This document shows positions 90-53,666 of a stretch of DNA of 58,399 bases, piece by piece. The notes below the pieces were generated by a model. It was not told where the DNA came from. It searched no databases and was given only the letters and a program-made list of their open reading frames with translations. Made by a program: the position numbers and the translations under genes. This DNA comes from Clostridia bacterium (GTDB lineage Bacteria > Bacillota > Clostridia > Christensenellales > Aristaeellaceae), in contig JAFRHH010000049.1 in the NCBI GenBank assembly GCA_017433405.1, forward strand, positions 1-58,399, given 5' to 3'. Position 1 is the first letter of the stretch; each line of letters starts with the position of its first letter.

Positions 90-1184
90 CCGATGGAGCG
101 GGACCTGCACAGCCGGAATCTGATCAACGAAAGCGCCTGGTTTTCCCTGCTTCAGGGGAAGGACGGGACGCTGGAGCTGCTGGACCGGCGGCTTGTGACC
201 GAATCGGACGAGAGCGCCTTCCTTTCCCTCGGGGAGCAGGCGGCAAAGAGCGGGGCGGACGCGGGGTTTATCGGGGACTATGCCTGGACGAGGAAGGAGC
301 GGCCGGAGGGATCGAAGCTGATGGTCTTCCTGAACGGGGAGACCCGGATGACTGCGGTTCGCAGCCTGGCGGTGATCTCCGGCTTTGCCTGCGTCGGCGG
401 TATCCTGCTGGCCTTCGTGGTGACGGCGCTGGCCTCCCGGCGGGCGGTTCAGCCGACCCTCCGAAATATGGAGCAGCAGAAGCAGTTCATTACCAACGCC
501 AGCCACGAGCTGAAGACCCCCATCACCGTCATCGGAACCAACATGTCCCTTCTGCAGATGGAAATTCCCGACAACCAGTGGGTTCGGAGCACGCAGAAAC
601 AGACCGGAATTCTGAAAAAGCTGGTCGACGAGCTGGTGTATCTTTCCCGGATGGAGGAGGAGAATCCGCCGCTGACGATCGAAAAGCTCCCGCTGGCCGA
701 TATCGTCGAAGAGACCGCGGAGCCCTTTGTCGCCATGGCGGAATACGCGGGGCGGGAGATGCGCGTCGAGGCGGAGAAGAAGCTGAGTATTCAGGGGGAC
801 CGGGCTTCGATTCAACGGCTGATTTCCACCCTGTGCGACAACGCGGTCAAGTACGCCGCGGGGGACGGCGAAATTCTTGTTTCTGCCCGGGGCGAAGGGA
901 AAAATGCCGTGATTATGGTATCCAATCCGGTGACGGAGCCCCTGACGAGGGAGCAGTGCGATCAGCTGTTTAACCGCTTCTATCGGACGGATGAATCCCG
1001 GAACAAGGAGAAGAAGGGCGGCTTCGGGATCGGGCTGGCGATTGCCGCCGCGATCGCGGAGAACCACGGCGGCAGCATCCGGGCCGCCATGGAGGAAGGC
1101 GGCCGGCTGAGCATCGCCTGTACGCTGCCGAGGGGACAGCATGACAGACGTGAACTGACGTTCACAGAGGAGGAACATGGCTGA
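3..1184 (+). CDS. Sensor histidine kinase, 5' end outside the window
   Basis: Membrane two-component sensor kinase. The reading frame is open from base 3, so the true start lies upstream. Counting from the Met at 93, an extracytoplasmic segment is followed by one membrane helix (about residues 90-112), the H-box SHELKTP with His138, the N-box LCDNAVKYA (about 246-254) and the G-box GFGIGLAI (about 309-316). These are the HisKA and HATPase_c signatures of an active kinase. The partner response regulator is not in view and probably lies upstream. The last residues (from GQ to the stop at 1182-1184) are encoded by a family B repeat, so the natural C-terminus has probably been replaced. The stop overlaps the next start by 8 nt. 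The signal sensed cannot be told. Confidence 0.9.
   Translation, partial: PPGENGGGPGASGEGTPPPLPGENGGEPGPMERDLHSRNLINESAWFSLLQGKDGTLELLDRRLVTESDESAFLSLGEQAAKSGADAGFIGDYAWTRKERPEGSKLMVFLNGETRMTAVRSLAVISGFACVGGILLAFVVTALASRRAVQPTLRNMEQQKQFITNASHELKTPITVIGTNMSLLQMEIPDNQWVRSTQKQTGILKKLVDELVYLSRMEEENPPLTIEKLPLADIVEETAEPFVAMAEYAGREMRVEAEKKLSIQGDRASIQRLISTLCDNAVKYAAGDGEILVSARGEGKNAVIMVSNPVTEPLTREQCDQLFNRFYRTDESRNKEKKGGFGIGLAIAAAIAENHGGSIRAAMEEGGRLSIACTLPRGQHDRRELTFTEEEHG
1134..1173 (+). repeat. Family B repeat, right part, at a gene junction
   Basis: Matches the right half of the family B repeat: GGACAG, a linker, then the hairpin GTGAAC-TGAC-GTTCAC and AGAGGAGG. It encodes the end of the upstream kinase. 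The terminal AGGAGG is the SD of the flavoprotein starting at 1177. Confidence 0.8.
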
Positions 1185-2565
1185 GGTACTGGTGATCGGG
1201 GGCGGGGCCGCCGGGATGATGGCGGCCTGGGCTGCGGCCCGGGCGGGGGCTCGGGTCACCCTGATCGAGCATAACGAGAAGCTGGGGAAAAAGGTTTACA
1301 TCACCGGCAAGGGGCGGTGCAACCTGACCAATGACTGCGGGGTGGACGAGTTTCTCGCCCAGGTTCCGCGAAACCCGCGGTTTCTTTACAGCGCGCTGAA
1401 CCGCTTCGGCCCCAGGGACATGATGGCGCTCCTCGAGAGCGCCGGATGCCCGGTCACCGTTCAGCGGGGACGGCGGGTGTTTCCCGCCTCGGAGAAGGCC
1501 AGCGACGTCACGAAGGCGATGACGGCCCTGATGAAGGCGGAAGGGGTTCGGGTCCGGCTGAACACCGGGCTGGGGGCGCTCCGGTTTCAGGAGACGGAGG
1601 ACACTGACACTGAGGCGGCAGCGGAGCGAAATGCGAAAGCGCGTTTCAGCGGGGAGACAGATTTTGTCCGCGAACGCTCAAGCGAAGCGGTAACAAAACC
1701 GTCATCCGGACAGAATGGCAGACGTGAACAAAGGTTCACAGGGGAGCGGATCGTCACCGGGGCCCTGCTGACGGACGGGAGCTTTCTGCGGGCGGACGCG
1801 GTCGTACTGGCCATGGGGGGATGGAGCTATCCCGCCACCGGATCTACCGGGGACGGGTACCGGATCGCCCGGGAGGCGGGATACACGGTCACGCCGCCTT
1901 CGCCGGTGCTGGTCGGGATCGAGACCCGGGAGGCGTGGCCCAGGGGCCTTCAGGGGCTGAGCCTGAAGAACGTAAGGCTGAGCCTGAAAAACGGAAGGAA
2001 GACGGTCTGGACGGAGCTGGGGGAGATGCTGTTCACCCATTTCGGCGTTTCCGGGCCCCTGGTGCTGGAGGCCAGCTGCCATCTTCCGGAGGATCCGAAG
2101 AAGGCGGAGCTGGAGATCGATTTCAAGCCGGGGCTGAGCCCGGAGCAGCTGGACGCCCGGCTGCGGCGGGATTTCGCGGCGGACGGGCGAAAGCGGCTTT
2201 CCACGGTGCTGGGGGGACTTTTGCCGGGGCGGCTGGCGGAGGTTTTTCCCTCCCTCTGCGGCGTGGCGGGAGAGATTTGCTGCAGCCAGGTTTCCGGCGC
2301 CCAGCGGGAAAGCGTCGCCCGGGCCCTGAAAGGGCTGACGATCGGGATCCGGAACCCCCGACCTATCGAGGAGGCTGTCGTGACCCGGGGCGGCGTTTCC
2401 GTTCGGCAGGTGGATCCCGGCACGATGGCGGGGAAGCTGCACCGGAACCTTTATTTCGCCGGGGAGATGTTGGATGTGGACGCCCATACGGGGGGATACA
2501 ACCTGCAGATCGCCTGGTCGACCGGGTTTGTGGCCGGAGAGGCCGCGGCGAGGTTGATGATTTGA
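1177..2565 (+). CDS. NAD(P)/FAD-dependent oxidoreductase, HI0933/BaiN-like, with in-frame repeat insert
   Basis: Cytoplasmic flavoprotein of the HI0933/BaiN (aminoacetone oxidase-like) family; the substrate is unknown. The N-terminus carries the dinucleotide-binding motif GGGAAG (residues 8-13), then GKGRCNLTN, and later GGWSYPATGSTGDGY and the C-terminal GEMLDVDAHTGGYNLQ, all typical of the family. At 462 residues it is longer than the usual 400-420. The excess lies at about residues 143-190, between RLNTGLGALRF and RIVTGALLTDG, where homologues have a short turn. Most of that segment (159-190) is the translation of a complete family B repeat. The frame stays open across it, so the protein may still be made and fold. 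The SD comes from another family B copy ending at 1173. Confidence 0.88.
   Translation: MAEVLVIGGGAAGMMAAWAAARAGARVTLIEHNEKLGKKVYITGKGRCNLTNDCGVDEFLAQVPRNPRFLYSALNRFGPRDMMALLESAGCPVTVQRGRRVFPASEKASDVTKAMTALMKAEGVRVRLNTGLGALRFQETEDTDTEAAAERNAKARFSGETDFVRERSSEAVTKPSSGQNGRREQRFTGERIVTGALLTDGSFLRADAVVLAMGGWSYPATGSTGDGYRIAREAGYTVTPPSPVLVGIETREAWPRGLQGLSLKNVRLSLKNGRKTVWTELGEMLFTHFGVSGPLVLEASCHLPEDPKKAELEIDFKPGLSPEQLDARLRRDFAADGRKRLSTVLGGLLPGRLAEVFPSLCGVAGEICCSQVSGAQRESVARALKGLTIGIRNPRPIEEAVVTRGGVSVRQVDPGTMAGKLHRNLYFAGEMLDVDAHTGGYNLQIAWSTGFVAGEAAARLMI
1653..1746 (+). repeat. Family B repeat, full length, inside the flavoprotein gene
   Basis: Complete 94-nt copy: GGAGACAGATTTTGTCCGC, loop, GCGG-TA-ACAAAA (hairpin 1), linker, then GTGAAC-AAAG-GTTCAC (hairpin 2) and a mutated SD, AGGGGAG. 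It is read in frame, giving GETDFVRERSSEAVTK and so on. The near match to the copies at 28407-28590 and 53571-53666 argues for recent insertion. Confidence 0.9.
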
Positions 2566-2587
2566 ATGCGAGGGGAGAAGTGACGCG

Positions 2588-2645
2588 CAGACAGAGGGGA
2601 CAGTTCTTCTGTCCTGGCGGACAGCAAGAACCGTCCCCCTGTCTG
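2588..2645. repeat. Family A 58-nt palindromic repeat
   Basis: Starts CAGACAGAGGGGACAGTTCT and ends AGAACCGTCCCCCTGTCTG. The two arms of about 27 nt are near-perfect inverted repeats around a TGGC loop. It lies between the flavoprotein and exonuclease genes. There is no U-run, so it is not a standard terminator. Full-length sister copies are at 8708 and 25915. Confidence 0.9.
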
Positions 2646-2663
2646 CAGTCCCCATGTTCCGAG

Positions 2664-2705
2664 CGGACAGAAAGGCCGACGTGGAATGGCGTTCACAGAG
2701 GAGAA
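2664..2705 (+). repeat. Family B repeat, right part, upstream of the exonuclease
   Basis: CGGACAGAAAGGCCGACG followed by a decayed hairpin (GTGGAA-TGGC-GTTCAC) and CAGAGGAG. It lies directly upstream of the exonuclease and can serve as SD for a TTG at 2715, or more distantly for the ATG at 2730. Confidence 0.75.
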
Positions 2706-2729
2706 CTAATATCGTTGGAGAGTGAAGAG

Positions 2730-3728
2730 ATGACCTATATTATTCTTGACCTGGAATGGAACCAGCCGGTTTCCTATCAGAGCAGCGCATATCGGAAGGT
2801 GGGGGACCGGCTGATCTTCGAGATGATTCAGATCGGGGCGGTCAAGCTGGCGGAGGATCTTTCCGTCGCGGATCATATTTCGATTCCCATCGCCCCGACC
2901 CACTATCTTCGCATTCATCCGCGGATCCGAAGAATGACGGGGCTGGACGAGGAAAGCCTGGCGGGGGCTCCCACTTTCCGGGAGGCGTTGGAGCAGTTCC
3001 GGGAGTGGTGCGGGGAGGACTATGTGCTGCTGACCTGGGGATGCGACGACGTCAGCGTTTTGCAGCAGAACATCGACTTTTTCGAATTCGGGGATATTCC
3101 CCTGGCGCCCCTTTGCGATATTCAGAAGCTCTTCAGCCAGGAGCACAAGCTCAAGGACCGGTCCGGGCTCAAGGCGGCGATGGAGATGATGCACATCGAG
3201 CCGGATGAGAGCATGTCCTTCCACAACGCCCTCAACGACGCCTGGTATACGGCCCAGGTGTTCCGGACGCTGCCGGATCCGGCGGCGGTGCTGAACTATG
3301 TTCAGACCCCCAGGCCCCTGATTCACAACCGGCCGCTGAAGGAGAAGACAAAGGGGGAGGTCTTCGCCTCCATCCGGGAGGCCCTCGGGAGCGAGAGCGC
3401 CGTCCGACCGACCTGTCCCCGGTGCGGAAGGGTTATGACGCTGGACGGCGAATATATTAAACAGAGTGCTGACCGATATATCGCGGTGGCCAAGTGCAAA
3501 AACCACGGACGGATTCTGATCCGGCTCCGCTTCCGGATCGACGACGACGGGAAGCGGATCATGCAGCGGACCACCGCACCGGCGACCGCGGCCAACGTCG
3601 CCTATGTCCATACCAAGCAGCTTCAGATGAAGCAGCGGCAGGAAAAATACCTCGCGGAGCACGGGGCGCTTCCGGATCCGGAGGAGGAGCTGGAACACGC
3701 CGAATCGGCCAACATGCCTTTCGATTGA
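2730..3728 (+). CDS. 3'-5' exonuclease, DEDDh family, with C-terminal zinc ribbon
   Basis: Predicted cytoplasmic RNase T/ERI-1-like 3'-5' exonuclease. The DEDDh residues are visible: Asp7 and Glu9 in LDLEWN, an Asp in TWGCDDVSVL, and the His and Asp of HNALNDAW, in the usual order over about 180 residues. A C-terminal extension carries CPRCG and a later CKNHGR, a probable zinc ribbon that may bind nucleic acid. The ATG at 2730 is chosen because the protein then begins MTYIILDLEWN, as in relatives. A TTG at 2715, about 11 nt after the repeat-borne GAGGAG, is an alternative. The substrate (RNA or DNA) cannot be decided. Confidence 0.85.
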   Translation: MTYIILDLEWNQPVSYQSSAYRKVGDRLIFEMIQIGAVKLAEDLSVADHISIPIAPTHYLRIHPRIRRMTGLDEESLAGAPTFREALEQFREWCGEDYVLLTWGCDDVSVLQQNIDFFEFGDIPLAPLCDIQKLFSQEHKLKDRSGLKAAMEMMHIEPDESMSFHNALNDAWYTAQVFRTLPDPAAVLNYVQTPRPLIHNRPLKEKTKGEVFASIREALGSESAVRPTCPRCGRVMTLDGEYIKQSADRYIAVAKCKNHGRILIRLRFRIDDDGKRIMQRTTAPATAANVAYVHTKQLQMKQRQEKYLAEHGALPDPEEELEHAESANMPFD

Positions 3729-3748
3729 ACCAAGAAGGAGGGATCCCC

Positions 3749-5395
3749 ATGATCATCACAGCCATGGACAAATCAATGGAGTTTCCGGAGGGACGCACGG
3801 TCCGGGAATGCCTGAAGGCGCTGGACGCGTTTCCGCGTGGGACGCTAGCGGCTCAGAGCGGCGGCGTCGTCATGGAGCTGAACGACCCGCTGCGCCAGGA
3901 CTGCAGCCTCAAGCCCCTGACCCTGGAGCACGGGGAAGGCCGGCGCATCTATGAACGGTCGCTGCGCTTCGTCATGCTGCTGGCCCTGCGGCATCTCTAT
4001 CCCTATCAGCGGGTCCGGATCGAGTACTCCGTCGGATACGGCGTCTTCGTCCGGCTGCCGGGGAAGGAGCTGCACAGGAAGGATATCGTTCAGCTGGAAA
4101 ACGAGATGCGCCGGCTGGTGGATCTGGATCTGAAGTTCGAAAAGAAACAGTGGACGAAGGAGGACGCCATCGCCTACTTCGAGGAACAGGGCCAGATGGA
4201 CAAGGTCGAGCTTTTGCAGTACCGGCCCGTGCCCTATTTCAACATGTATTCCATCGACGGCATGTGGGAATATTTCTACGGCGCCATGACGGTTTCGACG
4301 GGATACCTCAAAGTTTTCACCCTCTTCGAGCTGCGGGGCGGTTTCGTTCTGCAGCTGCCGATGGGGGCGGACTTCGATCACGCGGCCCCCTACATCTACC
4401 GGCCGAAGCATCTTGAGGTCTTCGCCCAGAGCGCCCACTGGTGCGAGATTCTCGGCGTCACCAACGTTTCGGACGTATCCCGGCTGATCGGGGAAAACCG
4501 GCTGCGGGACTTCATCCGGGTCAACGAGGTGCTGCATGAATCGGCGATCAGCGATATCGCCCGGAAGATTCACGAGCAGGACAAGCATATCGTCCTGGTG
4601 GCCGGGCCTTCCAGCAGCGGAAAGACCACCTTCGCCGCGCGGCTGGCGATTCACCTTCAGATGTACGGGCATCATTCCCGCCGCATCTCCATGGACGATT
4701 TCTTTATCAACCGGGCGGACATGCCCCGGGACGCCTACGGCGAGACCAACTTCGAGACCGTCGACGCGCTGGACACGAAACTGCTGGCCGATTCCCTGAA
4801 CGGGCTTTTAAACGGCGAGGAAGTCTTCATGCCGAACTTCGACTTCTCCCTCGGGGAGAAGGATTACCTGACCCCGCCGATTACCCTGAAGCCGGGGGAG
4901 ATTCTCGTGGTCGAAGGGCTGCACGGGCTGAATCCCCGGATCAGCGACCTGCTGCCGGCCGACGAGATCTACCGGGTTTTCGTCAGCGCCCTGACCTGCC
5001 TGAACCTGGACGACCACAACCGGATCCGGACCACGGACGTCCGGCTGCTTCGCAGGATCGTCCGCGACAGCCAGTTCCGGGGCTATACCCCGGAGGAGAC
5101 CCTGGACCTGTGGCACAAGGTCCGCAAGGGGGAGGAGGAATACATCTTCGCCTATCAGGAGAACGCCGACAGCATGTTCAACACGGCGCTGCACTACGAG
5201 CTGCCGGTGCTGAAGCTTTACGCCTACGATATGCTCCTGGAGGTGCCTTCGTCGTCGCCGAACTATCTGCTGGCCCGGCGGCTGATCAAGACCCTGAACT
5301 ATCTGCCGGACGTGGATCCCGCCCAGCTGAACGAGATTCCGCCGCTGTCGCTCTTAAGGGAGTTCATCGGCGGCTGCACGCTGGAAGAGGAGTAA
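3749..5395 (+). CDS. Nucleoside (uridine-type) kinase with N-terminal TGS/tRNA-synthetase-like domain
   Basis: A 548-residue protein of the phosphoribulokinase/uridine kinase superfamily. The N-terminal 60 residues resemble a TGS domain. Residues 60-200 resemble the second additional domain of threonyl-tRNA synthetase (RIYERSLRFVMLLALRHLYP). The kinase half has a P-loop GPSSSGKTT (about 286-294), the substrate loop SMDDFF and VVEGLHGLNP. Such fusions are common in Clostridia, where they are annotated as nucleoside kinases that phosphorylate uridine or cytidine in salvage. The start is set by AAGGAGGGA (3735-3743) before the ATG, 20 nt after the exonuclease stop. An operon with the exonuclease is likely. 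Confidence 0.85.
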   Translation: MIITAMDKSMEFPEGRTVRECLKALDAFPRGTLAAQSGGVVMELNDPLRQDCSLKPLTLEHGEGRRIYERSLRFVMLLALRHLYPYQRVRIEYSVGYGVFVRLPGKELHRKDIVQLENEMRRLVDLDLKFEKKQWTKEDAIAYFEEQGQMDKVELLQYRPVPYFNMYSIDGMWEYFYGAMTVSTGYLKVFTLFELRGGFVLQLPMGADFDHAAPYIYRPKHLEVFAQSAHWCEILGVTNVSDVSRLIGENRLRDFIRVNEVLHESAISDIARKIHEQDKHIVLVAGPSSSGKTTFAARLAIHLQMYGHHSRRISMDDFFINRADMPRDAYGETNFETVDALDTKLLADSLNGLLNGEEVFMPNFDFSLGEKDYLTPPITLKPGEILVVEGLHGLNPRISDLLPADEIYRVFVSALTCLNLDDHNRIRTTDVRLLRRIVRDSQFRGYTPEETLDLWHKVRKGEEEYIFAYQENADSMFNTALHYELPVLKLYAYDMLLEVPSSSPNYLLARRLIKTLNYLPDVDPAQLNEIPPLSLLREFIGGCTLEEE

Positions 5396-5430
5396 CGGGG
5401 CTGAATTGACGAGAAGAAGGGTGAAAGAGA

Positions 5431-19807: not shown

Positions 19808-19819
19808 TATTAAATGGGC

Positions 19820-19845
19820 GTGAACTGATGTTCAGCGAGGAGAGG
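19820..19845 (+). repeat. Minimal family B end: hairpin 2 plus SD
   Basis: GTGAAC-TGAT-GTTCAG followed by CGAGGAGAGG. The same hairpin-plus-SD arrangement as family B, without the left half, placed at the very 5' end of this transcript and ending about 6 nt before the ATG at 19851. Confidence 0.55.
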
Positions 19846-25053: not shown

Positions 25054-25113
25054 GGAGACAGGTCCTGTATTCCGGACAGAATGACAGACGTGAACTTACG
25101 TTCACAGAGGAGA
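25054..25113 (+). repeat. Family B repeat with hairpin 1 deleted
   Basis: GGAGACAGGTCCTGT joins directly to TTCCGGACAGAATGACAGA, then GTGAAC-TTAC-GTTCAC and AGAGGAG. Hairpin 1 of the full element is missing, as expected from a fold-back deletion. The copy lies between dnaE and the ABC ATPase gene. Confidence 0.8.
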
Positions 25114-26197: not shown

Positions 26198-26302
26198 TGG
26201 GGCCGGAAGGGACGAGGTCAGAGGGATGGATACGCAGCACAAAAGGACCGTTCCTCTGTGTTCTTCAGCTCGAATGCCCTGAGGGAAAGGAGGGGAAGCG
26301 CC

Positions 26303-28486
26303 ATGAAAGCCATCTGGAAGCGGGAGCTCCAGGGTTATTTCTATACCCCGGTGGGATACGTGTTCATGGGGGTTTTTCTGACGGTTTCCTCCGTGCTCTT
26401 TTTCATGGAGATCCTGCGGCAGCGCAGCGGCGATCTGCCGGCCTTCATCGGCGAGATGAGCTATCTCTGGATGCTGCTCAGTCCGATTCTGACCATGCGG
26501 CTGATCGCGGAGGAGCGGCAGAAGGGGACGGATCAGCTGCTTCTGACCAGCCCCGTCAGCACCGGGGGCATCGTCGGCGGAAAGGCGCTGGCGGCCGGGA
26601 CGGTCCTGATGGCGACCACGGCGCTGACGGGGCTGTTCGTCCTCGTGGTGGCGCTGTACGGCCGGGTGTATCCGGCGGAGCTGGCGGTCAACTATCTGGG
26701 CTTCATCCTCCAGGGCTGCGCCTTTATGGCGATGGATCTGTTCCTGAGCGCCTGCGCGCCGACGCCGGCCATTGCCGCCGCCCTCGCCTTCGGGGCGAAT
26801 TTCCTGATCTGGATTCTGGACCTGGTGGAGAATGCCGTAATGGTCGAGTGGATCGCGGCGGCGCTGCGGTTTATGAGCCTGTATACCCGGAACGAGCCCT
26901 TCCTGATGGGCCAGCTGAGCCCCGCGGGGATCATCTTCGATCTGAGCTTTGCCGCGGCTTTTCTGCTTCTGACGAAGGCGCGGCTGGAGGAGGGCAGGAC
27001 GCGGCGGGCTGGCGGGGCCCGGCTGACGGCCCTGATGGCGATCCTCCTGATGATCGGGATCTGCGTCGGGGCGGAGACCCTGGAGAAACGGCAGGGCTGG
27101 CGGCGGGACTTTTCCTTTAACGCCATCGCCACCCACAGCCGGCAGACGGAGAGCGTTCTTGGGAGCCTAGACCGGGAGGTGACGATCTACGCGCTGTTCC
27201 GGAAGGGGGACGAGGACGCGCCCCTGATGGAGCTGCTGGACCGGTACCGGGCGGCGAGCCCCATGATCCGCTGGGAGCAGAAGGATCCGGCGCTGAATCC
27301 TGCGCTGATCGCCCGGTATACAACGGAGAGCCGGACCCCCACGGCGGACTGCCTGATCGTCGCCTGCGAGGAGACGGGGCGGTTCCGGATCCTGGGGCCG
27401 GAGGATTACGTCAGCCTGAGCATGGATCCGGAGACCGGGGAATACAGCTATGCGGGATGGACCTATGAGCGGAGCCTGACGGGGGCGATCCGGGCCGTCA
27501 CCATGGATCGGGTGCCCCGGGTCGTCCTCATGCAGGGCCACGGCGAGCTGGATGGGGAGGCGACGAAGGCCTTCGTGTCGCTGCTGACCGCCAACCAGTA
27601 CGAGGTCAGCTGGGCCGACGGCTCCGGGGACGGGCTGGAGGAAGGGGATCTGGCGGTCTTCTTCAGCCCCCTGCGGGATCTGACGGAGGAGGAGCTGGCA
27701 CGGATGAAGGCGTTCGCCGGAAAGGGCGGCAGCTTCCTGTTCACCTGCGACTATACGGATCCGGTAGCCGATATGCCGAACTACGCGTCGCTGCTTCGCA
27801 GTTACGGCTTCGTGCCCCGGGAGGGGCTGACGGTCGGGGATCCTTCGGAGGCGGGCACCTGCTACAACGGGATAAGCATCTATCTGATGCCCACGATGCT
27901 GTCGACGGATATCACCATCGATCTGACGGCCTCCGGGGCGGACACCCTGCTGCTGCCCGGGGCCCGGGCCTTCGAGGAGCCGGAGGAGGGGGACCGGAAC
28001 CTGACGGTCATGAAAGTGCTGGAGAGCGGAAAGGGCGCCTATCTGAAAACCATGACGGCTCAGTCCGCCAGCCTGGACCGGGCGGAGGGGGATCCAACCG
28101 GTCCCTTCCCCCTGGCGCTGGAGGCCCGGCGGGTGACGGCGGAGGGCTATGTCTCCCGGGCCTTTATCCTCGGCTGCTCCGCGGTGCTGACGGAGCAGCA
28201 GATCTGGGCGATGACCGACGCCCAGCAGTTCCTGATCCGGGTGACGGAATTTCTCCAGGATCTGAAAGCCAGCGATCTGAATATTCTGGCCCGGGACGCG
28301 ATGCGGCCCGGACTGACGCCGGGGAGCACCACGCTGGGCTCCGTGATCCTGGTGCTGCTGCCCGCCTCGGTGCTGCTGGCGGCGCTGCTGGTGCTGATCC
28401 CCCGAAGGAGACAGGTTTTGTCCGCGAACGCGTTAGCGAAGCGGTCACAAAATCGTCATCCGGACAGAAAGGCAGACGTGAACTGA
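26303..28486 (+). CDS. ABC-2 permease fused to a GldG-like substrate-interaction domain
   Basis: A 727-residue membrane protein. Residues 1-270 form an ABC-2 permease of about six helices (KRELQGYFYTPVGYVFMG, FGANFLIWILDLVENAV). A further helix (about 238-256) leads into an extracytoplasmic GldG/ABC_transp_aux region (about 270-690; RQTESVLGSLDREVTIYALF, VVLMQGHGELDG, FLFTCDYTDPV). A final helix lies near 690-712. In Bacteroidetes GldF and GldG are separate proteins; here they are fused. The 23-residue tail after PRR is the translation of a family B repeat. AAAGGAGGGG precedes the ATG at 26303. It should form a complex with the ATPase upstream; the cargo is unknown. Confidence 0.85.
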   Translation: MKAIWKRELQGYFYTPVGYVFMGVFLTVSSVLFFMEILRQRSGDLPAFIGEMSYLWMLLSPILTMRLIAEERQKGTDQLLLTSPVSTGGIVGGKALAAGTVLMATTALTGLFVLVVALYGRVYPAELAVNYLGFILQGCAFMAMDLFLSACAPTPAIAAALAFGANFLIWILDLVENAVMVEWIAAALRFMSLYTRNEPFLMGQLSPAGIIFDLSFAAAFLLLTKARLEEGRTRRAGGARLTALMAILLMIGICVGAETLEKRQGWRRDFSFNAIATHSRQTESVLGSLDREVTIYALFRKGDEDAPLMELLDRYRAASPMIRWEQKDPALNPALIARYTTESRTPTADCLIVACEETGRFRILGPEDYVSLSMDPETGEYSYAGWTYERSLTGAIRAVTMDRVPRVVLMQGHGELDGEATKAFVSLLTANQYEVSWADGSGDGLEEGDLAVFFSPLRDLTEEELARMKAFAGKGGSFLFTCDYTDPVADMPNYASLLRSYGFVPREGLTVGDPSEAGTCYNGISIYLMPTMLSTDITIDLTASGADTLLLPGARAFEEPEEGDRNLTVMKVLESGKGAYLKTMTAQSASLDRAEGDPTGPFPLALEARRVTAEGYVSRAFILGCSAVLTEQQIWAMTDAQQFLIRVTEFLQDLKASDLNILARDAMRPGLTPGSTTLGSVILVLLPASVLLAALLVLIPRRRQVLSANALAKRSQNRHPDRKADVN

Positions 28487-28590
28487 CGTTCACGGAGGAG
28501 ACAGATTTTGTCCGCGAACGCGTTAGCGAAGCGGTTACAAAATCGTCATCCGGACAGAAAGGCAGACGTGTACTGACGTTCACGGAGGAG
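28407..28590 (+). repeat. Two tandem full-length family B repeats
   Basis: Two copies with a 90-nt period (28407-28500 and 28497-28590, sharing GGAG) differ at only a few bases. Hairpin 2 reads GTGAAC-TGAC-GTTCAC in the first and GTGTAC-TGAC-GTTCAC in the second. The first copy codes the permease tail and contains its stop. The second ends in the SD (GGAGGAG) of the DUF4340 gene, 10 nt before its ATG. Confidence 0.93.
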
Positions 28591-42897: not shown

Positions 42898-42952
42898 GAA
42901 AACCGTTCACCGTCGCGGAAGGACAGACGTGAACGGACGTTCACAGAGGAGA
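42898..42952 (+). repeat. Family B repeat, right half, giving the nudC SD
   Basis: AAAACCGTTCACCGTCGCGG, then GGACAGAC, hairpin GTGAAC-GGAC-GTTCAC and AGAGGAG. This SD is 8 nt before the nudC ATG. The loop GGAC differs from other copies while the stem is kept. Confidence 0.78.
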
Positions 42953-43820: not shown

Positions 43821-43867
43821 GGGGGGCCTGATGCATCAGTGAACATCATTTTTTCTCAGCGAGCCGC

Positions 43868-43907
43868 TGTTCACGTCTGGCAGGCTTTGTCGGATGACGA
43901 CGCTGGC
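43868..43907 (-). repeat. Diverged family B copy in reverse orientation
   Basis: Reading the minus strand gives GTCGTCATCCGACAAAG then CCTGCCAGACGTGAAC, matching the middle of the element. It lies just downstream of amt. The right arm is decayed. Confidence 0.5.
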
Positions 43908-43912
43908 GCCGC

Positions 43913-45640
43913 CTATTCCTCCGACTGCAGGGCATCGTAGCCCTCCTCGCCGGTCCGGACCCGGATCACGTTCTCCACATCCTGGACAAAGATCTTGCCG
44001 TCGCCGATATGGCCGGTGTAGAGAACGCCGCGGGCTGTTTCGACCACTTCGCTGACGGGCACCCTGCTGACCACGATATCCACCTGAACCTTGGGCAGCA
44101 GGGTTACCTCCACCGGCGTGCCGCGGTAATACTCGGGCTTGCCCTTCTGAGCGCCGTAGCCCATGACGTTGGTTACCGTCATGCCGGTGATCCCGATGGC
44201 GTTCATCGCCTTCTTCAGGTTTTCGAGGCTGGCGGGGCGGCAGATGATCTGGACCCGGGTATAAACCGGCGCGCCTGGCGCCTTCTCCGCCTTCTTTGCC
44301 GCGCCGGGCGTTCCCTCCGCCGGTACGGCGGCCGGCGCGGGAACGATGCCCGGAACGGGCTGCGCGGCCGGCGCGTCAATGCCCTCCTCCGGAAGGATCG
44401 AGAATCCAGAATAGGCTGTCAGCAGGCCGTGCTCGCTGCGGTCAAGGCCGGAGATTTCATCCGCCGCGTCCGCCCGCAGGCCTATCGTCTTTTTGATCGC
44501 CCAGAAAACCAGGGTAATCATCACCGCTGTCCAGGCGATCGTGCTGACAACGCCCAGGGCCTGGACGCCCAGGAAGTGGAATCCGCCGCCGTAGAAAACG
44601 CCCTTTTCGGTGGAGACGCCCGTTGCGAAAAGGCCCGTCAGCAGGGTGCCGGCGGCGCCGCACACCCCATGGACGGAGATCGCGCCGACGGGATCATCGA
44701 TCTTCAGGATCCTGTCGAAAGCCTCGACCGACAGCACCACCAGTATTCCGCAGCACAGCCCGATGACGGCCGCGCCGAAGGGATTCACGGCGTCGCAGCC
44801 CGCCGTAATGCCGACCAGCCCGGCCAGCGCCGCGTTAAAGGTCATGGAAACATCCGGCTTGCCATATTTTATCCAGGTAAAAATCATCGTCGCCAGCGTC
44901 GCCACGGCAGCCGCCAGGTTGGTGTTAAAGAACACGAGGCCGGCGGAGGTGATCAGGCTGTCGCTGTCCATGCCGACGGTGGAAGCACCGTTGAAGCCGA
45001 ACCAGCAGAACCAGAGGATGAAAACCCCCAGGGCCGCGATGGAAAGGTTATGCCCCAGGATGGCCCGCGGCTTTCCGTCCTTTCCGTATTTGCCGACCCG
45101 GGGTCCCAGGATCTTCGCGCCGATCAGCGCGCAGACGCCGCCGACCATATGGACCGCCGTCGAGCCGGCGAAATCGTGGAAGCCCATCCGGGCCAGCCAG
45201 CCGCCGCCCCAGATCCAGTGGCCGCTGACGGGATAGATCAGCAGGGAAATCGCCGCGGAATAGACGCAGTAGGCGGAAAACCGGGTCCGCTCCGCCATGG
45301 CGCCGGAAACGATCGTCGCGGAGGTGGCGCAGAAGACGGTCTGGAAGATCGCGTAGGCCCACAGGGGAACGCCCGCCGGAAGAATGAAGCCGTAATCCTT
45401 CATGATAAAGGGATCAATCCAGCCGAAGAGCGAGGTTCCCGCGCCGAACATGATGCCGAATCCAAACAGCCAGTAGAGCGGCGTACCGATGCAGAAGTCC
45501 ATCAGATTCTTCATCAGGATATTGCCGGTATTCTTCGCCCGGGTAAACCCGGCTTCGCACATGGCAAAGCCGGCCTGCATAAAGAAGACGAGGGCTGCGC
45601 CGAGCAGAACCCAGATGGTGTTTGCGGGGGAATACGTCAT
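43913..45640 (-). CDS. amt: Ammonium transporter fused to a PII (GlnB) domain
   Basis: 575 residues. The Amt part (about 1-405) has QAGFAMCEAGF, SGHWIWGGGW with the first pore His, STAVHMVGG and ISVHGVCGAAGT with the second His. A Pro/Ala/Lys-rich linker (about 415-460) joins a full PII domain (about 465-570): RVQIICRPASLENLKKAM, the T-loop YGAQKGKPEYYRG with its Tyr, and TGHIGDGKIFV with the ATP-binding B-loop. PII normally blocks Amt when nitrogen is plentiful, so here the regulator is tethered. The ATG at 45640 has GGGAGTG 8 nt upstream, unlike the earlier ATG at 45655. Confidence 0.92.
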   Translation of the reverse strand: MTYSPANTIWVLLGAALVFFMQAGFAMCEAGFTRAKNTGNILMKNLMDFCIGTPLYWLFGFGIMFGAGTSLFGWIDPFIMKDYGFILPAGVPLWAYAIFQTVFCATSATIVSGAMAERTRFSAYCVYSAAISLLIYPVSGHWIWGGGWLARMGFHDFAGSTAVHMVGGVCALIGAKILGPRVGKYGKDGKPRAILGHNLSIAALGVFILWFCWFGFNGASTVGMDSDSLITSAGLVFFNTNLAAAVATLATMIFTWIKYGKPDVSMTFNAALAGLVGITAGCDAVNPFGAAVIGLCCGILVVLSVEAFDRILKIDDPVGAISVHGVCGAAGTLLTGLFATGVSTEKGVFYGGGFHFLGVQALGVVSTIAWTAVMITLVFWAIKKTIGLRADAADEISGLDRSEHGLLTAYSGFSILPEEGIDAPAAQPVPGIVPAPAAVPAEGTPGAAKKAEKAPGAPVYTRVQIICRPASLENLKKAMNAIGITGMTVTNVMGYGAQKGKPEYYRGTPVEVTLLPKVQVDIVVSRVPVSEVVETARGVLYTGHIGDGKIFVQDVENVIRVRTGEEGYDALQSEE

Positions 45641-45717: not shown

Positions 45718-45726
45718 AATGAGGAG

Positions 45727-46174: not shown

Positions 46175-46206
46175 GGCGGACGCAAACCGGCGCTCACAGA
46201 GGTGAA
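46175..46206 (+). repeat. Decayed family B end upstream of trpD
   Basis: GGCGGACGCAAACCGGCGCTC then ACAGAGG. It aligns to GGCAGACGTGAAC-loop-GTTCACAGAGG with a few substitutions. It is 64 nt before trpD, so it does not supply that SD. Confidence 0.45.
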
Positions 46207-48074: not shown

Positions 48075-48131
48075 GGGCCCGGAGGGCCGGAGCGCGGACG
48101 AAAAGACGCTGAAGAAAGCGGAAAAGGCGGG

Positions 48132-48755
48132 GTGATCGCAACGGGAACCCGAATCAAGATGTGCGGGCTGCGGCGGGCGGAGGACATCCGGGCCGCGAAC
48201 GCGATTTTGCCGGAATATATCGGCTTCGTGTTCTTCCGGGGCAGCCGGCGATACCTGTCCCCGGAGGAGGCGGCGGCGCTGAGAGGCGGCGTCGCGCCGG
48301 AGATTCGGGTCGTCGGGGTTTTTGTTGACGAGGAACCGGAGCAGGTGGCGGCGCTCATGGCGGGCGGGATCATCGACATCGCGCAGCTCCACGGACAGGA
48401 GGACGAGGCCTGGCTCCGGCGGTTCCGGGCCCTCGGCGGCGGGCCGGCGATCCGGGCCTTCCGGGTTCGGCGCGGGGAGGATATCCGGCGGGCGGAGGCT
48501 TTTCCCTCGGACATGATCCTGCTGGACGCCGGCGCCGGGGACGGGAAGACCTTCGACTGGCGGCTGCTTCAGGGAGTGATGAGGCCTTACTTCCTTGCCG
48601 GGGGGCTGAACCCGGAGAACGCGGGCAGGGCGGTTCGGGAACTGACCCCCTTCGCGGTCGACGTTTCCTCGGGGATTGAGACGGCGGGCTTCAAGGATCC
48701 GGAGAAAATGCGCGCCTTTGCGCGGGCGGTAAGAATGGAGGGGGAAAAGACATGA
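48132..48755 (+). CDS. trpF: Phosphoribosylanthranilate isomerase
   Basis: 207 residues. [13 protein letters not shown] holds the catalytic Cys. [15 protein letters not shown] and [12 protein letters not shown] carry the catalytic Asp and phosphate site. The start is GTG 48132; an ATG at 48159 would cut into the first strand. ATGA overlap with trpB. Confidence 0.93.
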
Positions 48756-49942: not shown

Positions 49943-50714
49943 AATCGCTTCCGCCTTTGAAAAGGGCAAGGCCTTTATCGCCTTTATCACCTGCGGGGAT
50001 CCGGATGCCGAAACCACGGTTCGGGCGGTCCGCTCGGCCGTAAAAAACGGGGCGGATCTGATCGAGCTGGGGATTCCCTTCTCCGATCCGACGGCGGAGG
50101 GCCCTGTGATCCAGGAGGCCAGCCTGCGGGCGCTTCAGGGCGGCATGACCACTGACGGCGCCTTCGCGGTGGTCCGGGAGCTGCGGCGGGACGTGACGGT
50201 TCCGATGGTTTTCATGACCTACGCGAACGTGATCTTTTCCTACGGCGCGGAGCGCTTCATCGCCCGATGCGCCGAGGAAGGGATCGACGGGCTGATTCTG
50301 CCGGACCTGCCCTATGAGGAAAAGGAGGAGTTCGGGCCCCTTTGCCGCAGGCACGGCGTAACGCTGATTTCCATGATCGCCCCGACCTCCGAAAACCGGA
50401 CGGCGATGATCGCCCGGGAGGCGGAAGGCTTCCTCTATCTGGTGTCCAGCCTCGGGGTGACCGGCACCCGGAGCGAGATTACCACCGACCTTCGGCCCAT
50501 CCTCCGGGTGATCCGCCAGAGCACGAAGGTTCCGGTGGCGGTCGGCTTCGGGATATCCACGCCGGAGCAGGCCAGGGCCATGGCGGCGATTTCCGACGGG
50601 GCCATCGTCGGATCCGCCATCGAGAAGATCCTGGCCCGGCGGGGCAGGGAAGCGCCGGAGGAGATCGGCGCCTATGTGCGCGCCATGAAGGAGGGGGTCC
50701 GGGCGGCGGAGTAG
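49935..50714 (+). CDS. trpA: Tryptophan synthase alpha chain
   Basis: 259 residues; makes indole from indole-3-glycerol phosphate for TrpB. The catalytic Glu is in [10 protein letters not shown]. The second acidic residue, Asp60 in the Escherichia coli enzyme (ADGP), is Glu here ([10 protein letters not shown]), a change I believe also occurs in other gut Firmicutes. [11 protein letters not shown] and [11 protein letters not shown] are present. Confidence 0.96.
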
Positions 50715-50734
50715 TTGTTCTCCGTATGTTTTTT
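50707..50734 (+). terminator. Weak terminator after trpA
   Basis: CGGAG, loop TAGTTGTT, CTCCG, then TATG and six T. A 5-bp stem, so only partial termination is expected. Confidence 0.45.
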
Positions 50735-50748
50735 CCCGCTCCGGCGAC

Positions 50749-50778
50749 TTGACAGCGAATCCTTCCGGTCTCTAGAAT
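50749..50778 (+). promoter_or_regulatory. Internal promoter before trpXYZ
   Basis: TTGACA (50749-50754), 18-nt spacer, TAGAAT (50773-50778), 62 nt before the trpX start. It could give the transporter T-box-independent expression. Confidence 0.7.
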
Positions 50779-50839
50779 ATGGTGATTTTCCCGTGAAGGG
50801 AAAGCGAAATCGAAATCAAATCAGAGGAGGTTTTTACCC

Positions 50840-51790
50840 ATGAAAAAGCTCTTTTCCGTCCTGATGGCCCTGTCCCTTCTGCTGGGCGTTTTCGCCTGCG
50901 CGACCGCCGAGGACAAAACCTACCGGGTCGGCATTCTGCAGCTGATTCAGCATCCCGCGCTGGATCAGGCGACCCAGGGCTTCAAGGATGCCCTGACGGC
51001 CAAACTGGGCGACAGGGTCAGTTTTGACGAGGGGAACGCCTCCGGCGATTCCAACAACTGCGCCCAGATCGCCAGCCGCCTGGTGTCGGCCCAGGTGGAT
51101 CTGATCATGGCCAACGCGACGCCGGCCATGCTGGCCTGCGCCACGGCCACAGCGGACATTCCGGTGCTGGCCACCTCCATTACCAACTATGAATCCGCCA
51201 TGGAAATCGAACTGACGCCGGAGGGCGCCACGGGCATCAACGTGTCCGGTACCAGCGACCTGGCGCCCCTGGACGGCCAGGCGGCGATGATCAAAGAGCT
51301 GTTCCCGGAGGCGAAGACCGTCGGGCTGATCTACTGCAACGCCGAGCCGAATTCCATCTTCCAGATCAAGACCATCGAGGGCTATCTGACGGAGCTGTGA
51401 TACGAGTGCAAACGCTTCGGCTTCAACGATTCCAACGATCTGGCCTCCGTCGTCCAGGCGGCGACCGAGTGCAACGTGCTGTATATCCCCACGGACAACA
51501 CCGCCGCCGGGAACACGGAAGCCATCGCGAACATCGTGCTGCCCGCCAAGGTTCCGGTCGTCGTCGGGGAGGAGGGCATCTGCGCCGGCTGCGGCGTGGC
51601 CACGCTGACTATCAGCTATTACGACATCGGATATAAGACCGGCGAGATGGCCTACGAGATTCTCGCGGAGGGCGCGGACATCACGAAGATGCCCATTGCC
51701 TACGCGCCGCAGTTCACCAAGAAGTACAACGCGGCCAACGCGGCGGAGCTGGGGATCACCATTCCCGCGGATTATCAGCCCATCGAATAA
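50840..51790 (+). pseudogene. trpX: Tryptophan ABC transporter binding protein TrpX, interrupted by an in-frame TGA
   Basis: A periplasmic-binding-fold protein of the ABC_sub_bind type with a signal peptide (residues 1-21, MKKLFSVLMALSLLLGVFAC). Reading on through codon 187 gives a normal 316-residue protein. That codon is TGA (51398-51400), in ...LTEL-stop-YECKRF. Relatives commonly have Gly-Tyr there, so a single G to T change of GGA is the simplest cause. The second half (SNDLASVVQAATECNVLYIP, PVVVGEEGICAGC) is intact and in frame, with no further damage, so the mutation is young or is a sequencing or assembly error. The lost part is the second lobe. The gene leads trpXYZ and has its own promoter. 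Confidence 0.85.
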
Positions 51791-51803
51791 TGGAGGAAGA
51801 CCT

Positions 51804-52748
51804 TTGAATATCGCGCAGCTGCTCAACCAAATGCCCGGCGCCGTGGCCCAGGGACTGATCTGGGGGATCATGGCGATCGGCGTCTACATCACCTTCCGCA
51901 TTCTTGACATCGCGGATCTGACGGTGGACGGTTCCTTTGCCACCGGCGGCGCCGTGGCGGCGATTCTGATTACGAACGGCGTCCATCCCTGGGTGGCCGT
52001 GCTGGCCGCGGTGGCGGCCGGCATGGCGGCCGGCGCCGTAACCGGCGTGTTTCATACTGCGATGGGGATTCCCGCGATTCTCGCGGGAATCCTCACCCAG
52101 CTCGCCCTGTATTCCGTGAACCTTCGGATTCAGGGTATCGGGACCGACCTGGGCTCCCGGGCCAACGTGCCCATGAGCATCAACAAGTATAAGAATATGC
52201 TGGTTTCGCTGCGAAACGTGGGCCAGTTCACCCTGGAGAATCCCATCTGGCTGATGCTGCTGATGACGGCGATCCTGATCGGGGCGATGTACTGGTTCTT
52301 CGGAACGGAGTACGGATGCGGCCTGCGGGCGGTCGGCGCCAATCCCCAGATGGCCCGGGCCCAGGGCATCAATACCGGGACCGGCAAGGTCGCGGGGCTG
52401 ATGATCTCCAACGGGCTGGTCGCCTTCTCCGGCGCGCTGATGGCGCAGTATCAGGGCTTTTCGGACGTTTCCATGGGCCGCGGCGCGATCGTGATCGGGC
52501 TGGCCGCCGTGATCATCGGTGAGGTGATCTTCGGAAAGCTGTTCCGGAACTTCGCCCTCCGGCTGCTGGCAGTGTCCATCGGCGCGATCATCTACTATCT
52601 GGTGATCCAGGTGGTGCTCTGGCTCGGGCTGAGCACCGACGACCTGAAGCTCCTGACGGCGCTGGTGGTGGCGGTCTTCCTGGCCATGCCTCACTGGAAG
52701 AGCAGGATCATCCCCCGAAAGCGGAAGGAGGCAGGTCAGCATGCGTGA
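51804..52748 (+). CDS. trpY: Tryptophan ABC transporter permease TrpY
   Basis: A 314-residue inner-membrane permease of the branched-chain-permease-like family used by TrpXYZ systems. About eight helices; motifs include ITFRILDIADLTVDGSF and GANPQMARAQGINTG. The start is TTG 51804, with GGAGGAAG 4 nt upstream; there is no nearby ATG. It overlaps trpZ by 8 nt. The assignment to tryptophan rests on the trp context and the XYZ gene set. Confidence 0.88.
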   Translation: MNIAQLLNQMPGAVAQGLIWGIMAIGVYITFRILDIADLTVDGSFATGGAVAAILITNGVHPWVAVLAAVAAGMAAGAVTGVFHTAMGIPAILAGILTQLALYSVNLRIQGIGTDLGSRANVPMSINKYKNMLVSLRNVGQFTLENPIWLMLLMTAILIGAMYWFFGTEYGCGLRAVGANPQMARAQGINTGTGKVAGLMISNGLVAFSGALMAQYQGFSDVSMGRGAIVIGLAAVIIGEVIFGKLFRNFALRLLAVSIGAIIYYLVIQVVLWLGLSTDDLKLLTALVVAVFLAMPHWKSRIIPRKRKEAGQHA

Positions 52749-53553
52749 AGAGCCGATGCTGGTTCTCCGGGATATCCGGAAAACCTTTCATCCCGGCACG
52801 GTGATGCAGACGGTTGCCCTGGCCGGGGCCAGCCTGACCCTGAACCGGGGCGATTTTGTCACCGTGATCGGCGGCAACGGGGCCGGAAAGAGCACGATGC
52901 TCAACGCCGTGGCCGGTACGTTTCCCGTCGACAGCGGGAGCATTTCCATCGCGGGGCGGGAGGTGACCCATCTGCCGGAGCACCGGCGGGCCGTCCTGCT
53001 GGGGCGGGTCTTTCAGGATCCCATGACCGGGACGGCCGCTACGATGAACATCGAGGAAAACCTGGCGCTGGCCGCCCGAAGGGGCGAAAAGCGCCACCTC
53101 CGATGGGGGATTACCCAGAAGGAGCGGGCGCTGTACCGGGAAAAGCTCGCCTCGCTGGATCTGGGGCTGGAGACCCGCCTGGGCAGCAAGGTGGGGCTGC
53201 TTTCCGGCGGCCAGCGGCAGGCACTGACGCTGCTGATGGCGACGCTGAAGCGGCCGGAGCTTCTGCTGCTGGACGAGCATACCGCCGCCCTGGATCCGAA
53301 GACGGCGGAGAAGGTGCTCACGCTCACGGATCAGCTGATTCGCGAAAATGAGCTGACCGCCCTGATGGTGACCCACAACATGAAGGACGCGCTGGCGCTG
53401 GGAAACCGGACGATCATGATGCATGAGGGCCGGATCATTCTGGATCTCAAAGAGGAAGAAAAGCGAAGCATGACCGTCGGGGATCTGCTGGAGCAGTTCG
53501 AGAAAACCAGCGGAAGGAAGCTGGACAACGACCGGATGCTTCTGGCGACGTAA
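52741..53553 (+). CDS. trpZ: Tryptophan ABC transporter ATPase TrpZ
   Basis: A 270-residue ATPase. Walker A GGNGAGKST, signature LSGGQRQ, Walker B LLLLDEHTAALDP (with His instead of the usual Pro after DE) and H-loop VTHNM. It powers TrpXY. No terminator is seen before trpE. Confidence 0.9.
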   Translation: MREEPMLVLRDIRKTFHPGTVMQTVALAGASLTLNRGDFVTVIGGNGAGKSTMLNAVAGTFPVDSGSISIAGREVTHLPEHRRAVLLGRVFQDPMTGTAATMNIEENLALAARRGEKRHLRWGITQKERALYREKLASLDLGLETRLGSKVGLLSGGQRQALTLLMATLKRPELLLLDEHTAALDPKTAEKVLTLTDQLIRENELTALMVTHNMKDALALGNRTIMMHEGRIILDLKEEEKRSMTVGDLLEQFEKTSGRKLDNDRMLLAT

Positions 53554-53570
53554 AGACAGAGACGGAAATG

Positions 53571-53666
53571 GGAGACAGATTTTGTCTGCGAACGCTCCAG
53601 CGAAGCGGTTACAAAATCGTCATCCGTCGCAGAATGGCAGACGTGAACCAACGTTCACAGAGGAGG
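53571..53666 (+). repeat. Family B repeat, full length, giving the trpE SD
   Basis: GGAGACAGATTTTGTCTGCG, then GCGGTTACAAAATCGTCATC, then hairpin GTGAAC-CAAC-GTTCAC and AGAGGAGG. The SD is 7 nt before the trpE ATG. It occupies most of the trpZ-trpE gap. Confidence 0.92.

Follow-up and report, generated by a model that had tools for sequence, protein, structure and literature searches.

IS200/IS605 elements, for which IS608 is the model, carry hairpins near both ends, show neither inverted repeats nor target duplication, and insert 3' of a fixed short motif. To our knowledge, Rickettsia palindromic elements (RPEs) are not known for SD placement. Di Nocera 2013 (PMC3733652) describes RPEs as in-frame, peptide-tolerated insertions within genes; that paper and Quentin 2018 (PMC6006769) describe REPs as high-copy, hairpin-forming, noncoding sequences of 20-100 nt that occur as singlets or doublets, carry a 5'-foot tetranucleotide and occasionally lie in frame inside genes. 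According to PMC3049150, pneumococcal BOX, RUP and SPRITE are small dispersed Gram-positive repeats able to modify genes and over-represented between convergent genes. Guide sequences of IS200/IS605 elements are treated in PMC8266576.

We analyzed a window of 58,399 nt (the whole stretch, contig JAFRHH010000049.1 of assembly GCA_017433405.1, a Clostridia bacterium of the Aristaeellaceae) that contains a dispersed repeat, family B. Family B resembles the REP/BIME/REPIN repeats with TnpAREP (RAYT), as far as the cited texts describe them, in high copy number, hairpins, a foot tetranucleotide and in-frame genic copies, and it is a small palindrome in high copy (at least 206). However, its foot is GGAG (68 of 122 non-tandem full copies; NGAG in 90) rather than the GT[AG]G (or CGTC) of REPs, its two hairpins are unlike each other whereas REP-type doublets are inverted copies, and it lies upstream of genes at the SD, in the sense orientation, whereas those texts place REPs mainly downstream of coding regions. 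Like IS200/IS605 elements, family B has hairpins near both ends, no terminal inverted repeats, no duplication and a motif 5' of its left end. Unlike them, it has no internal transposase, and its right end is a repeat of the target motif, here the SD; with such an end, the ribosome-binding site could repair itself and copies could insert in tandem. The likeness to RPEs lies in in-frame genic insertion and is one of description, not of sequence, and for BOX, RUP and SPRITE the text consulted describes no terminal SD. No description of an SD-targeting repeat was found in the openly (CC) licensed PMC literature, which does not prove its absence.

Architecture and copies of family B

We searched the genome with covariance models of the full unit (R1) and of its right half (R2). 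Together they find at least 206 copies, a lower bound with 150 scored candidates taken per model search, at a density of about one copy per 12 kb. Of these, 150 are full and 56 are short, the latter picked up only by the 39-nt single-hairpin model. The full unit is a two-hairpin structure of about 94 nt, just as the original prediction had it, and its consensus fold has 24 pairs in the two hairpins; the 39-nt short form consists of hairpin 2 and AGAGGAG. A search of the genome for the pattern GTGAAC-N4-GTTCAC-N0-8-AGAGGAGG gives 39 matches, against none for its reversed control; together with the model copies, this excludes a chance origin. The ends, GGAGACAG and AGAGGAG, do not form an inverted pair. 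A classical MITE was considered and rejected, as neither terminal inverted repeats nor target duplication was seen in the copies. A known RNA family was also rejected: Rfam 15 gave no match at the gathering score in the window and none at E up to 1 on a tandem pair. The window contains no tRNA or tmRNA.

All eight clear copies first proposed for the window are real, each with an R2 E of about 5e-12 or better and each on the + strand, and R2 places their right ends at the last coordinates of the first eight rows of Table 1. R1 confirms complete units at 1653-1746, 28407-28500 and 53571-53665 in the window; the unit at 28497-28590 is missing from the R1 window list and was recovered in the genome-wide search. 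Three decayed copies had also been proposed, of which those at 19820 and 43868 are marginal and that at 46175 is matched by neither model. As anticipated, an SD lies 3-10 nt before the ATG in four genes, at 4 nt for the flavoprotein, 8 for NudC, 8 for TrpE and 10 for DUF4340. The copies starting at 28407, 1653, 2664 and 25054 are not the SD of any gene start.

Table 1. Family B copies and possible relics in the window
Feature	Coordinates	Strand	Score and context
Short copy (hairpin 2 + AGAGGAG)	1134..1172	+	R2 64 bits, E 5e-18; right end is predicted SD of HI0933-like flavoprotein gene (ATG 1177, 4 nt away)
Full copy inside flavoprotein gene, in frame (GETDFVRERSSEAVTKPSSGQNGRREQRFTGE)	1653..1746	+	R1 109 bits
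Short copy	2665..2703	+	R2 44.5 bits; 26 nt before ATG (2730) of RNase_T/DEDDh exonuclease (Pfam); adjoins a GGGGAC-type inverted repeat
Copy without most of hairpin 1	25054..25112	+	R2 66 bits, R1 48 bits; right end 23 nt upstream of ABC ATPase GTG (25136)
Tandem pair, first copy (90-nt period)	28407..28500	+	R1 116.5 bits
Tandem pair, second copy	28497..28590	+	Right end is predicted SD of DUF4340 gene (ATG 28601)
Short copy, predicted SD of nudC	42913..42951	+	R2 49.6 bits; ATG 42960, 8 nt; Pfam NUDIX + Zn_ribbon_NUD
Full copy, predicted SD of trpE	53571..53665	+	R1 107 bits; ATG 53674, 8 nt; Pfam Anth_synt_I_N + Chorismate_bind
Possible relic of hairpin 2 + SD before an ATG	19819..19842	+	R2 15 bits, E 0.006, marginal
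Possible relic	43852..43916	-	R1 20 bits, E 0.006, marginal

Gene starts, empty sites and in-frame copies

Right ends lie 3-25 nt before an ATG that opens at least 60 codons in 119 of 206 copies, with a mode of 7-11 nt. By the same measure, the figure is 15 of 206 for left ends, 13.4% for random positions and 18% for 4892 sites of bare GGAG (counted in the first 100 stretches plus the window, sites inside copies included). Among the 67 copies fetched later, 37 right ends precede a qualifying ATG, and for 87 of all 206 copies no such ATG lies within 25 nt. The expected bias to start codons on the sense strand is therefore present and orientation-specific; position and orientation are not random. 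Given its complementarity to the anti-SD at the right spacing before the start, the right end of family B is predicted to serve as the SD. At 13 sites, the start codons downstream of copies align with those of relatives.

We used flank queries to find the corresponding loci in sister genomes. Both flanks of 17 copies align to sister-species loci (47 site-relative pairs), and none of these loci is filled. The matched pieces are about 66-92% identical, so exact break points can be read at only a few clean sites, and these show GGAG at the junction. For example, the DUF4340 site reads ccccgaaGGAG|GCGATAAGCCATG in the empty locus of genome G009 and gaaGGAG|[180 nt]|ACGGTAAGCCATG in the genome studied here. 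In 35 of 37 empty loci of relatives at 13 sites, the SD duplex energy is already -6 kcal/mol or better, so the gene gains no start signal from the insertion. Mean energies are -10.8 for filled sites versus -9.3 for relatives, with the filled site stronger at 9 of 13 (P = 0.04), a weak trend towards strengthening. These alignments indicate that family B inserts at a pre-existing SD, whose role its right end is predicted to take over.

When the two junctions are compared in the 122 non-tandem full copies, the first base is variable at the left junction, which reads NGAG in 90 copies (first base G 90, A 15, T 12, C 5), and near-fixed at the right end (G 116, A 5, T 1), where GGAG is near-invariant (all four positions scored in 88 copies). 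This contrast argues against a symmetric target duplication and would fit a duplication-free insertion on the 3' side of a GAG-type target. The left-hand GAG may itself be partly element sequence.

In-frame copies of the 90-nt unit are also found within genes, including those for the flavoprotein and FtsK. Four copies lie inside Pfam-supported genes, all read in one frame (..TD.VR.......SSGQ.G.RE....); read-through was assessed for the first 139 copies. The insert in the flavoprotein is missing from six relatives.

Convincing copies occur in 2 of 44 other genus genomes, G009 and G042 (3 of 45 with the own genome), suggesting that family B has spread recently. With a 98-nt query, a match was obtained in 1 of 40 relatives. 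R2 at E up to 0.1, run on other genomes with stricter filters that lose weak matches, gave matches in 26 of 45 genomes, one of them the own genome, with 43 matches spread over the other 25. We judged 28 loci of other genomes plus nine (two in common), of which those in G009 and G042 alone were accepted; further copies may be concealed in incomplete drafts or among weak matches outside this set. Across 84,980 species, with one genome per species, an exact pattern with 19 fixed bases had one match in Streptomyces and one in a short viral contig, both of which we assume to be chance; the genome studied here, or a very close one, may be absent from this search.

Proposed mechanism, candidate mobilizing enzyme and alternative explanations

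From these sequence patterns, family B is probably a mobile element of the REP/MITE-like, non-autonomous kind that lacks terminal inverted repeats and inserts 3' of a GAG-type SD core. We propose that insertion occurs just 3' of a GAG-type motif, with a preference for GGAG, which is also the SD core. The element's own right end is (AGAG)GAG. Upon landing in a ribosome-binding site, it would leave the host SD upstream of the insert, and its GAGGAG would substitute at a near-equal distance from the start codon, as an SD of equal or slightly greater strength. By the same GAG rule, a new copy could insert downstream of an existing one and so build up tandem arrays with a 90-nt period, and a gene could take up the 90-nt (30-codon) unit in frame behind a GAG codon. 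Both hairpins would most likely be recognition structures for the mobilizing enzyme, for which a single-strand (HUH/Y1) transposase working in trans is plausible. We favor, by a modest measure, a class of single-strand-type mobile repeats that target the ribosome-binding site, in which the end is a spare SD, so that each insertion replaces the signal it breaks, and the stop-free 30-codon frame is equally harmless in genes.

A candidate enzyme was sought in the Y1 (PF01797) family. The genome, an 89% complete draft, has a single match, the Y1 transposase P0001 (G000:C5:805-1548, minus strand). P0001, which is RAYT-like, may specifically mobilize family B as its REP-type partner, a pairing that we put forward tentatively and rate somewhat below even chances. 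P0001 has a complete family B copy about 150 bp upstream on the same strand and none in the 350 nt viewed downstream, the contig is rich in copies, and hairpin ends without inverted repeats or duplication fit single-strand transposition. However, the gene is not bracketed by family B ends, the adjacency could be chance at the density of copies in this genome, and the best homologues in G009 and G042, which carry family B, are at most 41-42% identical. Moreover, GGGACGG(TTC) inverted repeats flank the homologues of 52-58% identity found in six genus genomes, and P0001 itself has a degenerate GGACGTATC repeat of the GGGACGG type upstream; these repeats weaken the case for a RAYT as the proven mobilizer. 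P0001 has NHVH and a C-terminal extension that by eye looks helix-turn-helix-like, features shared with TIRYT / TnpAY1 subclass 2.1 (GGGGWSAS repeats), and its relatives are flanked by GGGGACGG. Family B differs from the repeat of that subclass, and the GGGGAC repeats of the own genome are a family separate from it. A sequence search found no solved-structure relatives of P0001.

Target choice and survival may each account for part of the start bias. It is doubtful that survival does so by itself, with a mobile element of no target preference whose SD insertions are tolerated through the carried SD while most others are purged. A self-carried SD would leave copies at starts almost neutral, the tail is kept there, and copies in Pfam-supported genes are in frame. 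Yet copies away from starts carry the same left motif (NGAG in 30 of 38 versus 1.5% background), and GGAG stands at the junction of clean empty sites, a motif that preference-free insertion would miss unless GAG belongs to the element.

It is improbable that family B is a selected RNA control module, a two-hairpin leader (standby, thermosensor-like or ligand-bound) that regulates translation and has spread by its benefit to genes. Besides the sense-strand placement at starts, double stem changes that preserve pairing number 10 in 194 hairpins versus 3.2 from shuffles that ignore descent, hairpin 2 has 41 kinds of tetraloop in those 194, divergence is lower in the stems than in most of the unit, and relics in G042 retain hairpin and SD (for example, GTGAGC/GCTCAC). 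However, 82 of 141 changed hairpin-2 stem pairs are broken, so the anticipated compensatory changes amount to weak covariation, which would equally follow from a transposase recognizing the stem. When 73 copies at gene starts were compared with 63 elsewhere, no selection on the hairpins at starts was found: hairpin 2 is intact in 32 versus 30 (P = 0.73), with 41 of the 73 start-site stems changed, and hairpin 1 in 13 versus 14 (P = 0.53). In contrast, the AGAGGAG tail is intact in 54 versus 30 (P = 0.002); in the later-fetched set alone (43 scored full copies), the figures are 15 of 21 versus 10 of 22, which is not significant (P = 0.12). The hairpins thus appear to serve mobility and not to act as a translation switch, and tail conservation indicates that the SD tail is the part selected by the host once a copy is at a gene start. 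The genes served in the window are unrelated (flavoprotein, DUF4340, nudC and trpE), relatives' loci do without the element, and Rfam has no match. The original prediction of a mobile or selected RNA module that sets translation is therefore borne out for the dispersed mobile element with its right end as SD and not for a translation-setting hairpin, given the SDs of relatives and hairpins no better kept at starts. Segmental duplication of gene starts, with the repeat as an accidental by-product, would explain why copies precede genes and can practically be set aside, since the downstream genes in the window are unrelated, copy boundaries recur and flanks match relatives' empty sites.

Significance

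Small bacterial repeats are mostly held to survive between or behind genes. Family B would instead go to the sensitive ribosome-binding site, where it is tolerated because the replacement is brought along, an unusually well-tolerated route by which selfish DNA can spread through a compact genome. If this is true, the SD of more than 100 gene starts in this genome has already been replaced, and family B may uncouple operon neighbors. The 119 gene starts would then be a natural, replicated test of leader structure and operon spacing at constant SD. Our reading also suggests that single-strand transposition can evolve to choose targets that repair themselves. It further cautions that a 'leader hairpin plus SD' motif recurring in genomes may be mobile DNA, not a riboregulator.

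Family B copies in the window and across the genome

We searched the window with R2, a covariance model of the 39-nt right half of family B made from 23 sequences. All eight clear copies of the original prediction were matched, on the plus strand in every case and with E values of about 5e-12 or better. The decayed copies proposed alongside them fared less well: those at 19820 and 43868 were marginal (E 0.006), the latter lying on the minus strand, and no family B copy was found at 46175 in searches of the window with R2 or with R1, the model of the full 94-nt unit made from 32 sequences. As proposed, the right end of a copy serves as the Shine-Dalgarno (SD) sequence of the flavoprotein, DUF4340, nudC and trpE genes, whose identities were upheld by Pfam (HI0933-like flavoprotein, DUF4340, NudC and TrpE).

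The draft genome (G000; 2.53 Mb in 92 contigs, 89% complete), of which the window is contig C24, holds at least 206 copies in the union of both models, 150 full and 56 short-only; this count is a lower bound, scoring having been capped at 150 candidates for each of R1 and R2. All were read with their flanks, 139 first and 67 later. The later set was not used for choosing the test, and some of its copies had gone into model building. Using an ORF criterion that is crude at the 62% G+C of the window, we found that 119 of 206 copies (82/139 first and 37/67 later) have, 3-25 nt beyond their right end, an ATG that starts an open frame of 60 codons or more; the modal spacing is 7-11 nt. The same held for 13.4% of 20,000 random positions, for 15 of the 206 left ends when these were read outwards and for 18% of 4892 bare GGAG sites (first 100 stretches plus the window, sites within copies included). 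Placement therefore exceeds the bare-GGAG expectation, and the predicted enrichment near start codons on the sense side is borne out. Seven right ends lie within tandem arrays, which have a period of about 90 nt.

Some copies lie inside genes. The 90-nt unit corresponds to 30 codons, and its GAG ACA GAT frame is stop-free in 49 of 93 full copies. In the first set, an ORF is open for at least 60 codons before and at least 30 after 15 of the 139 copies, in various frames; several of these cases are probably due to chance. Four of the same 139 copies fall in Pfam-supported genes, all in the GAG ACA GAT frame. The two in the FtsK/SpoIIIE gene are 345 nt apart and in frame, adding about 60 residues before the alpha domain. 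Window 26198-28486 holds a long ORF, ahead of the tandem pair at DUF4340, that runs into the first copy and ends at the TGA of its hairpin 2 tetraloop (TGAC), so that the product gains about 25 codons at its C-terminus; the homologue in the relative G009 terminates LVPRRRR at the SD.

Individual family B copies and the Y1 transposase gene
Feature	Location	Context
Copy	Window 1653	Within flavoprotein gene
Copy	Window 2664	Right end 26 nt upstream of a start
Copy	Window 25054	Right end 23 nt upstream of a start
Intragenic copy		Flavoprotein gene (the copy at window 1653); extra segment absent from six relatives
Two intragenic copies	L070, G000:C3:2371-5209	FtsK/SpoIIIE gene, before alpha domain
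Intragenic copy, first of a tandem		Tail of CNNM/CBS/CorC_HlyC protein
Intragenic copy		136-codon ORF without a Pfam family
P0001	G000:C5:805-1548, minus strand	Y1 transposase

Empty sites and the probable target motif

The flanks of 24 copies served as queries against five sister species, and one 20-kb region of the window was searched across the genus; 20 further stretches were added. The flanks of 133 copies, tandem-internal ones excluded, were compared with the relatives' loci. Both flanks aligned for 17 of the 133. These make up 47 site-relative pairs (48 rows, as one place appears twice); family B was absent from all 47. When relatives were searched with window 300-3900, the copies at 1653 and 2664 were missing from G009, G065, G005 and G012. 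The cleanest empty site is that of the tandem pair before DUF4340, which reads ccccgaaGGAG/GCGATAAGCCATG in G009 (slash, junction) and ccccgaaGGAG/ACAG...(180 nt)...GGAGGAG/ACGGTAAGCCATG when filled. Other empty counterparts are gaataaGGAG/GCCGGAAATATG in G065 (C27:15212), TGAGGAG/AGCGCCATG in G005 (C26:8511) and gtaagGAGAAGATTGACTCATG in G009 (short copy C8:5226). At many other sites the intergenic DNA is too diverged for the junction to be placed. One of the 47, the G019 site orthologous to G000:C6:1741 (L208, G019:C33), carries tgaactgacttttacaaggagg, which resembles the element's right end and is possibly an old relic of family B.

The start codon could be aligned at 13 sites, covering 37 relative loci, and SD duplex energy was -6 kcal/mol or better in 35 of the 37. 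Mean energy was -10.8 at filled sites vs -9.3 at empty ones (nine sites stronger, four weaker, P = 0.04). These data indicate that the element mostly enters pre-existing SDs and takes their place.

Among 122 non-tandem full copies, the left junction reads GGAG in 68 and NGAG in 90. Its first base is G in 90, A in 15, T in 12 and C in 5, and the corresponding right-end base is G in 116, A in 5 and T in 1. Because a duplication would vary jointly at both sides, the left motif is most readily taken as the target and the right one as the element's own, though some of the inner GAG on the left may belong to the element. Left NGAG occurs in 30 of 38 copies away from gene starts and 34 of 46 at starts. 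Short copies have a more heterogeneous left end, some starting ACAG behind a G/A-rich triplet and others having a CCGTCATCCGTCGC lead or being preceded by ATCC.

Conservation of the SD tail and the hairpins

Conservation was analysed on 136 full copies, 14 of the 150 having been set aside because of their length or because they aligned poorly. The stems diverge from the consensus by 6.6% (hairpin 1) and 8.3% (hairpin 2), and AGAGGAG by 7.7%; the figures are 13-15% for inner hairpin 1 and the middle and 28.7% for the hairpin 2 tetraloop, which was scored against TGAC although TGCC is commoner. An intact tail was seen in 54 of the 73 gene-start copies vs 30 of 63 elsewhere (P = 0.0025), or 26 of 58 elsewhere once tandem-internal copies were removed (P = 0.001); the later set by itself gave 15/21 vs 10/22 (P = 0.12). 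These results indicate that the host maintains the SD tail.

The hairpins were no better kept at gene starts, either hairpin 2 (intact in 32/73 vs 30/63, P = 0.73) or hairpin 1 (13/73 vs 14/63, P = 0.53). The stems have diverged less than most of the unit, with no added conservation at gene starts; this pattern favours a role in mobility over one in translation control, and the proposal of a hairpin module setting translation is not upheld. The predicted compensatory changes were found in part: of 141 changed stem pairs in 194 alignable hairpins, 59 still pair and 82 are broken. Ten of the 59 are double changes, vs 3.2 in shuffles (0/1000 reach 10), a comparison in which descent is not controlled.

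Relatives, candidate mobiliser and affinities

A 98-nt query matched one of 40 relatives, G009, at one tandem locus. This pair (L033, G009:C45:39331-39452), no other family B locus having been seen in that genome, is nearly identical to G000:C54:10426 at the same gene, reflecting either shared ancestry or recent transfer. R2 was applied to 45 genomes of the genus, this one among them, and in the part of the loci that was read, convincing copies elsewhere occurred only in G009 and G042. The latter has about five diverged members, three with the right end close before an ATG (by eye) and one with a compensated stem, GTGAGC/GCTCAC. An exact-pattern search of 84,980 species, each represented by one genome, gave a single candidate match. 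Family B seems old enough to be common to related species and to have expanded in one lineage.

The sole Y1 transposase found, the RAYT-like P0001 (247 aa), scores above the cut-off for Pfam Y1_Tnp and below that for the NCBIfam REP-associated transposase. It carries NHVH, and YIVQNQ at the catalytic tyrosine motif vs Y...NP in 28 of 29 aligned homologues; its activity may be altered. Its C-terminal extension recalls the published subclass 2.1/TIRYT. Some 150 bp upstream of the gene there is a complete copy of family B. GGGACGG inverted repeats, however, flank the six closest homologues, and P0001 likewise has a degenerate GGACGTATC repeat of this type upstream. P0001 is a possible, rather doubtful, mobiliser of family B. 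Imperfect ACTTCCTTAACGAACTGAA direct repeats also run directly upstream of P0001 (at about 1550-1640 on the minus strand of L032, the stretch that holds the gene). A second repeat family (GGGGACAGTTCTTCTGTCC..., GGGGACGTATC...), of the kind flanking Y1 transposase genes in sister species, occurs at window 2591-2655 and on G000:C27, C5 and C7.

By appearance, family B most resembles REP elements and IS200/IS605-type non-autonomous elements. Unlike REPs, it has neither the GT[AG]G tag nor gene-end placement, and no autonomous relative was found in the 89% complete draft; we therefore file it as neither. Of the predicted "mobile or selected RNA module", the mobile repeat stands and an RNA regulator was not demonstrated. 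Family B is a real, abundant and recently expanded mobile repeat whose relation to the ribosome-binding site is both unusual and well supported.
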